This document shows positions 24,774 through 30,289 of a stretch of DNA of 32,018 bases, piece by piece (position 1 is the first letter of the stretch; the number at the start of each line of letters is the position of its first letter). Made by a program: the position numbers and the translations under genes. Origin of the DNA: Clostridiales bacterium DTU087 (GTDB lineage: Bacteria > Bacillota > Limnochordia > DTU087); contig LFTN01000106.1 in NCBI GenBank assembly GCA_001513495.1, positions 1-32,018 on the forward strand, in the 5' to 3' direction. Under the pieces are notes generated by a model. The model worked only from the letters and a program-made list of their open reading frames with translations, ran no database searches and was not told the origin of the DNA.

Positions 24774-25853
24774 ATGTGGAAGAAGCACAAAACAGTCTTC
24801 ATGTGTCTCAGCCTTATGCTCATGCTTTCCGGTATGGTCAATGCAAATGCTGCAGAAATTCCTTTAGGTGATGCAGTCCATCGGGCTTTACAGGAAAGCC
24901 TTGAGTTCAAAATAGCACAGCTGGAATGGGAGAACGCCCAGCTTGCTTACCAGAAGGCCTCAGCTGATAACCTGCTGGCCCAGTCTGCATACAACCAGCG
25001 GGCGGCTGAACTTGACCTCTTGAAGTCAGAAAAAGCCTACAAGAACAGCATCGCCAATGTGGTAATTTCCGCTGTGCGGGCGTTTAATGATGTGAGCTTG
25101 GCCCAGATGAACCTCAAGATCAGTGAAGAGCAGCTGCGGCTGAAGCAGAAGGCCAGGGATTTGACTGAGAAGAAGCTGCAGATGCAAAATGCCAGTGAGT
25201 ACGACCTCCTGCAGGCAGAGGCAGCTTTGGCCTCCAGCCAGATGGATTATCAGGCAGCTGTCAACAGTCTCGAAGAGAAGAAGCAGAATTTCTGGCTGCT
25301 GACCAGCTCTGAAGCAGTAATGCCGGATGGCGGGCTGAACTTCGTCCCCTTTGAATGGGAGCTGGCAGGGGTCTTGCCGGGCCTGTTGGAAGCCAGTGTG
25401 GCCGTCAAAGAAGCTGAAGACAGCCTGGCCTTGTCCAAGCTAAACTGGGAAAGGCTCCGTTTGGAGGGCACCGCAGATCTCATGATGCGGGAGGCTGAGA
25501 ATGCAGTGCGCTTAGCCGAACTGCGGCTTGAGCAAGCCAGGACAAACCTCACCCAGCAGGCCCAGGCAGCCTTCAACGGGGTAAAGCAGGCTGAACAGGC
25601 CTACCGGGCCCGTCAGATAAGCCTCCAGCTGGAGCAGAGGGTCTATGACATCACCAAGGGACAGGTGGAGGCAGGCCTAAAGACTGAAGATGATCTTTCC
25701 AATGCTCAAGTCAGCCTCTGGCAGGCAGAGCGGTCAGTATATGAAGCCCTCAGCAACTATATTACAGCTTATCTGGAGTGGGAGGATCTCATCGGCAGGG
25801 ATGTTAGAGATAGTGTGATCTTACAGCCGGCCCATGCGGGAGCAGAGGGCTAA
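24774..25853 (+). CDS. TolC-family-like protein, predicted all-helical (no obvious barrel strands)
   Basis: Signal peptide, then two TolC-like helical repeats (PLGDAVHRALQESLEFKIAQLEWENAQLAYQKA...; QVEAGLKTEDDLSNAQVSLWQAERSVYEALSNYITAYLEWEDLIG). Confidence 0.75.
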   Translation: MWKKHKTVFMCLSLMLMLSGMVNANAAEIPLGDAVHRALQESLEFKIAQLEWENAQLAYQKASADNLLAQSAYNQRAAELDLLKSEKAYKNSIANVVISAVRAFNDVSLAQMNLKISEEQLRLKQKARDLTEKKLQMQNASEYDLLQAEAALASSQMDYQAAVNSLEEKKQNFWLLTSSEAVMPDGGLNFVPFEWELAGVLPGLLEASVAVKEAEDSLALSKLNWERLRLEGTADLMMREAENAVRLAELRLEQARTNLTQQAQAAFNGVKQAEQAYRARQISLQLEQRVYDITKGQVEAGLKTEDDLSNAQVSLWQAERSVYEALSNYITAYLEWEDLIGRDVRDSVILQPAHAGAEG

Positions 25854-25861
25854 GGAGGGGT

Positions 25862-27292
25862 TTGAACTTGGTGTGGTCAAGGGAAAAGGGGATCCGGCTG
25901 AGGCTGATGGCGGCAGCCGCGGTCCTGACTTTGCTCATCACTGTATCGGCTGTGTCCTGGGCCGAACCCCATCCAGGTGTTGAGTTATTGACTTTGGCAG
26001 AGGCACTAAACCGTGCCGCAGAAAAGCATCCTCTTGTCAGCGGGGCCCAAGGGGCTGAGGAGTCTAAGGCACTGGCCTTGGCCCGCAGCCAGGCTGTCTA
26101 TGCGCCTAGGCTGTCCTTATCGTTAAAGCCGGTCACACTTAGCGCTGAAGAGAAAGTGGAAGTGCAGCTTGCGGATTCTGCAGCTGTTAACGGAGGCCTA
26201 TCTACTCTCCAAGGATTGGACCTGTCGGCTTCCAACCGGTGGGATGCCGGCGGCAGGGAAGGCAAGGGCCTGAGGGTGCAAGCTCAGCTGCAGCTGTGGC
26301 CTCCTGCCCGCTGCAATGGAGATTATCTCAGGTTGCTGTCGGCAGAGGAAGCTGTGGAACTGTCGGCTTACAAGTACAGTCAGGCGCGGCAAGAAGCAGT
26401 CATCGATATCTACAGCCGCTACCGCATGCTGCAGATTGAAGAAGCCAGGCTGAAGCTCCAGCAAGACGCCTATGAGGCAAACCAGGCAGCCTATGAGCGG
26501 GCGGTGGGCAAGGCGGAGCAGGGGCTGGCTTCAGCTGTGGAAGTGCTGGCTGCTCAGCAGGCCAAGGATGAAAGCTTGGCTGAGTATCGGCGGGCAGCCA
26601 GGGATTACCGGATAAAGCTCAAGGCCTTTTTAGCCGACCTCTCATTGGAAGGGGAGGCATGGGAGCTGGAGCCTTTGCCTGATGCCTTAAGCTTGCCGGA
26701 TGTAGATATCACCTTGGAAGAAGCGGTTGCCATGGCCTATGGGGCTGATCTAGCTTTGATGGAGCAAAGCCAGGCCCTGGCCGCTGCCCAGCGTCAGCTT
26801 GAGGCGGTTAGGGCAGCCAACGGTATAGAGCTGAGCCTCGGTGCCAATGCCAGCTTTTCGGAAGAGCAGTCATGGGACGGCAGATATGAAGCCTATCTTT
26901 CCTTCTCGTATCCCGTTTTCGACGGGGGGATCCGTCAATTGGATGTGAAGGAGGCGGAACTGAATCTCCAGAGTGCCCAAAAGGCTGTGGATCAGCGCCG
27001 CCTGGAAGTGGGCCGGGCAGTGGAAAGCAAGCTTTCGGAGATTCAGTACCTGGCAGATATGGTGAGGATCGCCGATCTTAAGTATGAGAAGGCCGCCCTT
27101 GAACATAATGCCAAGGTTCTCCAAGCGGCCAACGGCTTGATACCTGAGTCGGAGGCAAAGGAAAGCCAGCGCCTGTTGGCAGGAGCCAGACTCAGCTGGC
27201 TAGAAGCTGCAGCAGCCTTGGAGAAGGCTAGGCTGGAGCTGAGGTCCATGACAGGGCAGGCAGTGGATGTGGAAGGGGGGCACCCCAATTGA
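25862..27292 (+). CDS. TolC-family outer membrane efflux protein
   Basis: Signal peptide; LTLAEALNRAAEKHPLV; beta-type segments YAPRLSLSLKPVTL...LRVQAQLQLWPP and IELSLGANASFSEE...YEAYLSFSYPVFDGGIRQLDVKEAELNL typical of OEP repeats. Confidence 0.88.
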   Translation: MNLVWSREKGIRLRLMAAAAVLTLLITVSAVSWAEPHPGVELLTLAEALNRAAEKHPLVSGAQGAEESKALALARSQAVYAPRLSLSLKPVTLSAEEKVEVQLADSAAVNGGLSTLQGLDLSASNRWDAGGREGKGLRVQAQLQLWPPARCNGDYLRLLSAEEAVELSAYKYSQARQEAVIDIYSRYRMLQIEEARLKLQQDAYEANQAAYERAVGKAEQGLASAVEVLAAQQAKDESLAEYRRAARDYRIKLKAFLADLSLEGEAWELEPLPDALSLPDVDITLEEAVAMAYGADLALMEQSQALAAAQRQLEAVRAANGIELSLGANASFSEEQSWDGRYEAYLSFSYPVFDGGIRQLDVKEAELNLQSAQKAVDQRRLEVGRAVESKLSEIQYLADMVRIADLKYEKAALEHNAKVLQAANGLIPESEAKESQRLLAGARLSWLEAAAALEKARLELRSMTGQAVDVEGGHPN

Positions 27293-28341
27293 GCAAGAAA
27301 CGCAGGAAATTTGTCAAGACTGGCTTGATCATCCTTATCGTGATCATTGCAGTCAGTTACGGGTATAGGCTGAGGACCCAAAGGCTAGAGCAGGCAGCAG
27401 CTGTCCTGCCGGCTGGCCGGGAGGTTGTGGTCACCCGGGGCGATCTGTCCAGGGGCGTATCCAGCACCGGTACTATCGCAGCTGCCCAGGATTTGGAACT
27501 GGCCTTTGATGTCGGCGGCAAGGTTAAGGATGTTTTCGTCCAAGCTACTGAAAAGGTAGAGATGGGGGCTGTCTTGGCCCAGCTGGCTGATACTGAACAG
27601 CAGATGGCATATCTTTCTGCTAAGCGGGATCTGGAACTGGCGAGATTCGATGCAGCTCCCAATGTCATCAAAGAAAAGGAGCTGCAGCTGCAGATCGCCG
27701 AGAATAACCTCAAGAACACCACCCTCAAGGCGCCGTTTGCTGGGATCGTGGCCAGGGTGGACATTCAGCCGGAGGAATGGGTGACATCAGGCACTACTGT
27801 GATGCGCCTGTTGGATACCAGCCGCATGTTCTTGAACGTGGGAGTAGATGAAGTGGACATCCGCTATGTAGAGCCAGGTCAAGAGGCAACGATCACCCTC
27901 GATGCCTACCCCGAGCTGAACCTCTCAGGCACAGTAGTGGAGGTGGGCATAGTCCCCGAGGCATCGGGACAGGTGGTCATCTTTCCAGTGAAGATTGAAA
28001 TCAATGATCCCGATCCCCGGGTGCGGGTGGGGATGAGTGCTGAGGCCGAGATTGTAGTGGAGAAAGCCGAGAATGTCTTAATCGTACCCTTCGAGGCTGT
28101 GACTTCAAGGGACGGCAAGAGTATAGTAGCCCGGGTTACCCAGGAAGGTGTAGAACCGACAGAAGTTGTCACCGGCCTCAGTGACGGCTTCCTCATCGAG
28201 ATCAAAGATGGCCTCAAGGAGGGAGACCGGATTCTCGCCAGCAACTATGAACTCTACCGTACTTTCCAGGGGGGCCCGGCAGGCGGCCCTCGGGGTGTTG
28301 GCGGAGTGCGGGTTGTCCAGCCGGGAGGAGTGCGGCGGTGA
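27289..28341 (+). CDS. MacA-like periplasmic adaptor (HlyD/RND-MFP type)
   Basis: N-terminal TM; lipoyl halves [32 protein letters not shown] and [33 protein letters not shown]; overlaps the ABC ATPase gene. Confidence 0.9.
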
Positions 28342-29078
28342 GCGACAGAGTCAAGGTTTTCGCTGCTGACGGGATCAGCAAGGTCTACACCATAGGAGAT
28401 ATCGAGGTTCATGCCCTGCGGAGTATTTCCTTTGCCATCGAGAACGGCGAATATGTGGCCATCATGGGCCCATCTGGTTCAGGCAAATCCACATTGATGC
28501 ACATCATGGGGTGTCTGGACAGGCCCACCAGCGGCTCCATGTATCTGCGGGGCAAGGATGTCAGCTCCCTCTCCGATGGCGATCTGGCTGAGATTCGCAA
28601 TGCTGAGATCGGGTTTGTTTTCCAGAACTTCAATCTCCTGCCCAATATCAGTATTTTGGAAAATGTGGAGCTGCCCATGATTTACGCCGGTGTGCCGCCG
28701 AAGGAGAGGCGGGCAAGGGCAGTGCGGGCTTTGGAGATGGTAGGGCTGGGCGATCGCCTGCACCATAAGCCCAGTGAAGTCTCGGGGGGTCAAAGGCAGA
28801 GGGCTTCCATCGCCCGGGCAATAGTGAACCGGCCGGCTATTGTGCTGGCCGATGAGCCTACAGGGAATCTTGATTCGGTTACAGGGACTGAGATCATGGA
28901 GCTCTTTGATGAGCTCAACGCCAATGGCAATACTATTATCCTCGTCACCCACGAACGTGACGTTGCTGAACACGCATCGCGAATCATCCATATCTTAGAT
29001 GGGCGAGTAGATCGGGTGGAAGTACGCACACAGGAGAACGGCAGCGGTGTGCAGGCAGGGGAGGCGGTGGATGTATGA
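28338..29078 (+). CDS. MacB/LolD-type ABC transporter ATP-binding protein
   Basis: Walker [12 protein letters not shown], signature [19 protein letters not shown], Walker [13 protein letters not shown]. Confidence 0.97.
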
Positions 29079-30289
29079 ATCTAATTGAATTTTTCAAGAT
29101 TGCCCTCGGCAGCCTTTCCACCAACAAGTTGCGGACCGCCCTTTCCCTTCTGGGGATTATCATTGGGGTGGCCTCGGTGATCACCTTGGTATCCATCGGC
29201 ACCGGTGCCCAGGAGCAGGTAACCAGCCAGATTGGCGCCATGGGCTCGAACCTGATTACCGTCAGTCCAGGATTTATCCGGGGCGGAGGGGGCCGGGTCA
29301 GTCAGGACATTGCCAATGTCTTTACCTTGGAAATGGCCAAAGCCATCCAGAATCTATCACCTAACATCCAGCATGTGGTGCCCACCTCGACTACCTCAGG
29401 GCTGGCTGTTTACGGCGGCAACAACGTCAGGGTCCAGATCAGCGGTGTAACGCCGGAGTATCAGGAAGTGATCAATCACTATCCCGTCATCGGGCGGTAT
29501 ATCCGCGATCAAGATGTGGCCAACAATGAGAAGATTGCCGTGCTGGGCTGGGAAGTGGCAGAGGATCTGTTTGGTTCCGAGAATCCTGTAGGCAAGGCCA
29601 TGCGGGTGGTCATCGGCGGCCGCAGCCTCAGCTTGACGGTTGTGGGTGTGATGGAGGCCAAGGGCCAAGTGATGATGGCCAATTACGACAACCGGATCTA
29701 TGTACCGGTCACCATGCTGCTTAATCGGGGCCTCAACTCCAGGTATGTGGATGGATACTCCATTATGGCCGCTTCCCGGGATGCAGCCAAATCGGTGGTT
29801 GAAGAAGTAGAGGCTTTCATGACCCGGATGTTAGGGGATTCCGACCGGTTCCGGGTTATGAGCCAGGACACCATTTTGGAGGCAGTCTCCCAGGCTACAG
29901 GCACAATGACATTAATGCTGGGGGCTATTGCCAGCATCTCTTTGCTGGTGGGTGGCATCGGGATCATGAATATCATGCTGGTGACTGTCAGTGAGCGGAC
30001 CCGGGAGATAGGGATTCGCAAGGCAGTAGGCGCCAAACGGCAGCATATCCTGGCCCAGTTTCTCTTGGAGTCTGTACTTCTCAGTGTTTTCGGCGGCCTT
30101 CTGGGGCTGGCCGTTGGCTGGGGCGGCGGCTATTGGATCAGCAAGGCGCTGGGCTGGCCCTTCTCTGTTTCCATACCGGCAGTAATGGTTGCCATCGGTT
30201 TCTCTGCCGGTGTCGGGCTGTTTTTCGGTATCTACCCCGCCTTGCAGGCAGCCTCCCTGGACCCGGTAGTTGCCTTGCGGTATGAATAG
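29075..30289 (+). CDS. MacB-type ABC transporter permease (MacB_PCD + FtsX)
   Basis: N-terminal [34 protein letters not shown]-terminal [44 protein letters not shown]. Confidence 0.96.

Follow-up and report, generated by a model that had tools for sequence, protein, structure and literature searches.

Two TolC-like proteins are encoded side by side in the window (the whole stretch of 32,018 nucleotides that was analysed, from Clostridiales bacterium DTU087), and one of them has lost both segments of the TolC barrel. This short protein (S; 359 residues, 24774..25853, on the + strand like every feature given below) belongs to the TolC/OEP family; it would be secreted and wholly helical, both membrane β-hairpins having disappeared. 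Its neighbour (L; 476 residues, TTG start, 25862..27292) is a barrel-type OEP protein. What appears to be new here is the strict pairing of S with L in diderm Bacillota; barrel-less OEP proteins in Bacillota that lack an outer membrane have been noted before. The distribution of S, L and BamA across genomes resolves into three states: TolC alone, S together with L, and S alone where there is no outer membrane.

Barrel sites and fold of the short protein

S and L score 75.6 and 96.1 bits against the OEP profile PF02321 (cut-off 22), each with two repeat stretches. The best stretch of L covers profile positions 1–187, that of S 83–187, and a search of the genome placed both S stretches in the second half of the profile (79–181 and 83–187). 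S has the family score and the two repeats of an OEP protein, but not the two β-strands per repeat. Alignment on E. coli TolC, which has 45 and 56 residues at its two barrel sites, gives L 77 (26093..26323) and 40 (26813..26932) and leaves S with 9 (ADNLLAQSA, residues 64–72, 24963..24989) and 8 (LEGTADLM, residues 230–237, 25461..25484). The preliminary description of this DNA had called S a TolC-like protein without either barrel segment, beside a neighbour that keeps both; these measurements bear it out, and the lengths, coordinates and sequences it gave are correct.

The barrel is absent throughout the group. OEP loci were collected from 61 genomes of the class to which the window belongs and were aligned on E. 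coli TolC. The 68 short proteins among them have 4–9 residues at the first site and exactly 8 at the second, whereas 63 long partners have 47–110 and 31–108, so that the ranges are disjoint. In a wider set of complete S proteins the first site holds 4–11 residues and the second holds 8 in 80 of 80. The same places hold 40–84 and 31–48 residues in 20 ordinary TolCs that come from other BamA-positive lineages, and the measure therefore separates the two kinds cleanly. Compared with TolC, L has a longer first barrel segment (median 79 versus 45) and a shorter second one (40 versus 56). Judged by these lengths, the first segment may hold four strands, and the barrel of L may differ from the standard 12-stranded one.

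The N terminus of S reads as a Sec-type signal peptide without a lipobox (MWKKHKTVFMCLSLMLMLSGMVNANAA, 24774..24854). The tip end of TolC is the end that docks on adaptors, and both tips are recognizable in S. The first (residues 136–141, 25179..25196) is a helix break in the structural model that aligns around TolC G147, a position conserved across the S group. The second (residues 300–304, AGLKT, 25671..25685), placed by model and TolC alignment, retains the tip motif and the glycine at TolC G365. The adaptor-type tips of L are kept about as well as those of S, each relative to its own mean.

The preliminary description had held that membrane strands in a confidently predicted structure would speak against a barrel-less protein. 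An AF2 model of S, built from a three-row alignment (the window protein and two close relatives), contains no strands at a mean pLDDT of 65, with nothing above 90; it supports the absence of strands, though not a detailed fold. In this low-confidence model, helices are drawn at residues 31–135, 142–178, 193–299 and 305–345; the top of 142–178 lies about 55 Å above the tip, and the other helix starts about 160 Å above it. The 14-residue linker (179–192) is too short for this gap in height, so the helices of 105 residues cannot run straight as drawn. The motifs that start helices, PSP in repeat 1 and YTP in repeat 2, are conserved in most relatives. From these motifs and the linker length we infer a turn at both sites, and a tight helical hairpin probably replaces each part of the barrel. 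S would then have the two long and four short helices of TolC, minus the strands. An earlier reading of continuous helix at both places was right in that strands are missing from the model; the helix is probably interrupted by hairpin turns, and ‘continuous’ is not to be taken literally.

The AF2 model of L (mean pLDDT 51) represents the barrel region too poorly for its strands to be counted. Searched against the PDB, a profile of S has its strong matches among barrel-type OEPs (TolC, E = 5e-27); since all strong structural matches are of this type, the barrel-less kind apparently has no solved structure. Foldseek with the S model returned nothing at E≤0.001, only coiled coils that carry no meaning at so low a confidence.

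Operon context, distribution and origin

S and L open an operon that continues with a MacA-like adaptor of the MFP type (350 residues, 27289..28341; HlyD_3, HlyD_D23 and RND_mfp matches), a MacB-like ATPase (28338..29078; ABC_tran, 119 bits) and a MacB-like permease with MacB_PCD and FtsX domain matches (29075..30289). A sigma-70 scan upstream of the operon gave a single weak promoter-like site. The adaptor and the separate ATPase and permease genes lie directly downstream of the OEP genes, as expected of MacAB–TolC; the window differs in having two OEP proteins rather than a single TolC exit duct and in the short hairpin of its MacA (50 residues, against 83 in AcrA). Many other members of the class have adaptor hairpins of about 133 residues, and hairpin lengths are bimodal, tracking pump type rather than the presence of S.

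The adjacency remarked on in the preliminary description is conserved. Among 80 complete S proteins, a barrel-type OEP directly adjoins 72 and lies within 6 kb of a further 5; two stand at a contig edge and one has no such partner. S mostly lies ahead of L, the two genes often overlapping by 4 nt, and the order S–L–MacA–MacB continues with frequent 4-nt overlaps; at four loci L lies upstream of S across a gap of 2–3.5 kb. All three OEP loci of the window genome are S–L pairs. In the third (L049, G000:C137:1-1001), close to the end of a contig, L is split into two frames that overlap, through either a frameshift or an assembly error.

At a few loci L is joined to the pump. In L091:2007-6365, L094:2301-6656 and L095:3023-7375 (one genus) and in L178:7367-9517 (cut), RND and barrel-type OEP share a single frame of 1450 residues; an OEP signal peptide lies where the two meet, the adaptor gene precedes the frame and the S gene follows it. 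Such a frame is possibly a polyprotein that signal peptidase cleaves. OEP stretches also occur within frames of 1485–1509 residues in other BamA-positive lineages (G271:C52, G362:C3 and G403:C51), perhaps further pump–OEP fusions. A plasmid search returned no named relatives of P0001 and, for a monoderm S, just OEP proteins of less than 60 percent identity and at most 78 percent query coverage.

The class to which the host belongs is diderm, with BamA (Omp85) present in 59 of 61 class relatives, the window genome included (E = 2.2e-56). This fits the Limnochordia. Limnochordia are named among the diderm Firmicutes lineages (PMC10665443).

Beyond the class, a survey of 399 genomes of the phylum gave matches to the S profile in 280 and BamA in 103. 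Of the genomes that are S-positive at E≤1e-40, 56 also have BamA and 72 lack it. Outside the class, L lies near S at 19 of 20 BamA-positive loci; at the remaining one (L186) the contig breaks off within the partner, of which a short L match is visible. In BamA-negative genomes, by contrast, 39 loci carry S without an adjacent L, with a Sec signal peptide legible in the sequence. About two thirds of these loci are MFP–RND–S operons and a few have MacAB. Most of these S proteins have 9 residues at the second site, frequently with the motif YTPNVF; the first site is longer, mostly 20–30. Among the matches listed for 60 BamA-negative genomes, every OEP stretch begins no earlier than profile position 62, and none of these matches therefore includes a barrel half; in 20 BamA-positive genomes that lack S, scoring weakly against its profile, most stretches begin at 1–9. 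These last, diderm Bacillota with an ordinary TolC, show that S is dispensable in some such envelopes.

TamB served as the second outer-membrane marker, because the Pfam model of LptD found no match even in BamA-positive controls and was uninformative. Among 16 BamA-positive controls TamB was found in 15; the 60 BamA-negative genomes gave no match. It was not found in the window genome, probably because the assembly is fragmented, and is present in a genome of the same genus. One BamA-negative locus (L148:6437-8080) encodes an S-type protein whose C terminus carries a copper amine oxidase N-terminal domain (PF07833, 1.9e-32), an extracellular module.

All S proteins are kin, and trees computed with the barrel columns removed favour, without proving, a single origin. 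The free tree requires three changes between S and non-S labels. Placing all 86 S proteins in one clade nevertheless fits better (lnL +19, p-AU 0.75; +33 with ordinary TolCs added, p-AU 0.83), and we set aside several independent losses of the barrel. In the larger set the BamA-negative S proteins form one group when L133 and L145 (divergent, near-identical rows) are left out.

Proposed arrangement of the two proteins in the pump

We propose that the two repeats of S form a TolC-type coiled-coil body with adaptor-docking tips, its far end closed by the two tight helical hairpins. By analogy with TolC, S would most likely be a trimeric tube. Its tips would dock on a ring of the MacA encoded downstream, L with its two barrel segments would provide the outer-membrane pore, and the pump would be a four-part machine of MacB, MacA, S and L. 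Where Bacillota have no outer membrane, S alone would terminate an MFP–RND pump or a MacAB pump, either within the cell wall or beyond it. The preliminary description had suggested a helical tube that works with L or extends the conduit, and both roles would fit this scheme.

On balance we favour an arrangement in which S is an all-helical conduit seated on the adaptor and L the pore at the outer membrane, most likely in series. Two lines of evidence favour such separate rings: S occurs alone in genomes that lack an outer membrane, and the RND–L fusions imply one L per RND subunit, that is three L per RND trimer, as fits an L homotrimer. Against a pure series stand the adaptor-type tips of L, which would not be needed there, and the adaptor hairpin lengths, which vary with pump type, lend it no support. 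A wider proposal, to which we give slightly less than even weight, is that export pumps of diderm Bacillota in this class have four parts with two TolC-type tubes, and that the barrel-less tube survived loss of the outer membrane in related lineages to leave monoderm cells with a complete, barrel-free conduit of adaptor plus TolC through the wall.

S and L could instead share a single trimer of mixed composition, such as two L with one S, in which S completes the helical body and L gives all the strands. With six strands each, two L could close a 12-stranded barrel. The genes adjoin and often overlap, the two proteins have a common helical plan and common tips, and the first insert of L is long. 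We nevertheless regard this as unlikely, though the most serious competitor: S occurs without L in genomes that have no outer membrane, the fusions call for three L per RND trimer, and the strands of L are not countable in its model.

We consider it rather improbable that S lies outside the conduit altogether, as an accessory or regulatory coiled coil or a cell-wall scaffold that holds the pump open or anchors it to peptidoglycan. The extracellular module at the C terminus of the L148 protein would suit such a role, and YknX, an adaptor from Gram-positive bacteria, binds peptidoglycan in purified form (PMC5985334). Yet S holds the OEP position in MFP–RND–OEP operons, with no other OEP among the matches listed, and retains TolC-type tips. 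That S is a decaying duplicate or an annotation artefact, as its shortness beside its paralog L might suggest, is scarcely credible: the frame is open and the signal peptide legible in all lineages, the second site is invariant in length in all 80 proteins, and between close species S is more conserved than L (for example 85 versus 72 percent identity) and so is not decaying. The pseudogene that the preliminary description had named as fatal to its reading is ruled out, together with annotation error, by this conservation across lineages.

Relation to known systems

S shares with the channels of the TolC/OEP (OMF) family, such as E. coli TolC and P. aeruginosa OprM, the two OEP repeats, coiled-coil helices, tip motif, signal peptide and an operon with pump and adaptor; it differs in having no barrel segment at all. 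Closer relatives may be the TolC-like proteins reported in 2022 from pump operons of 12 monoderm Firmicutes, which have an ‘omission’ in the barrel domain (PMC8809574). Compared by description, they are OEP proteins of cells without BAM, as are our BamA-negative S proteins, and very likely they are of the S type. They belong to single-membrane cells, whereas the window genome has BamA and here, in BamA-positive Bacillota, S has a barrel-type OEP as its partner; and, set against an ‘omission’, the loss in S is complete and uniform. The preliminary description had named the arrangement in the window as its strongest candidate for an undescribed one. Barrel-less relatives as such are widespread in Bacillota that lack an outer membrane, but a search of openly accessible journal papers found no account of S–L pairing in diderm Bacillota or of the three-state pattern.

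The Gram-positive adaptor systems of the YknWXYZ type likewise combine a MacAB-type or RND pump with an adaptor in cells without an outer membrane, and two reviews describe no OEP component for them (PMC4338810, PMC5985334). The same reviews call it puzzling that Gram-positive adaptors keep a TolC-binding α-hairpin although there is no outer membrane. A barrel-less TolC encoded beside adaptor and pump offers these hairpins a direct, testable partner.

How the monoderm TolC-like proteins assemble without BAM was posed as a question, and an S-layer location was proposed for them (PMC8809574). If they are of the S type, the question has an answer, since S has no barrel to insert. The three states weaken the notion that S serves residence in the S-layer only, and they allow the diderm–monoderm transition to be studied within one machine. 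Surface extracts of the Gram-positive D. reducens contained one OEP protein, Dred_3141 (PMC4137172).
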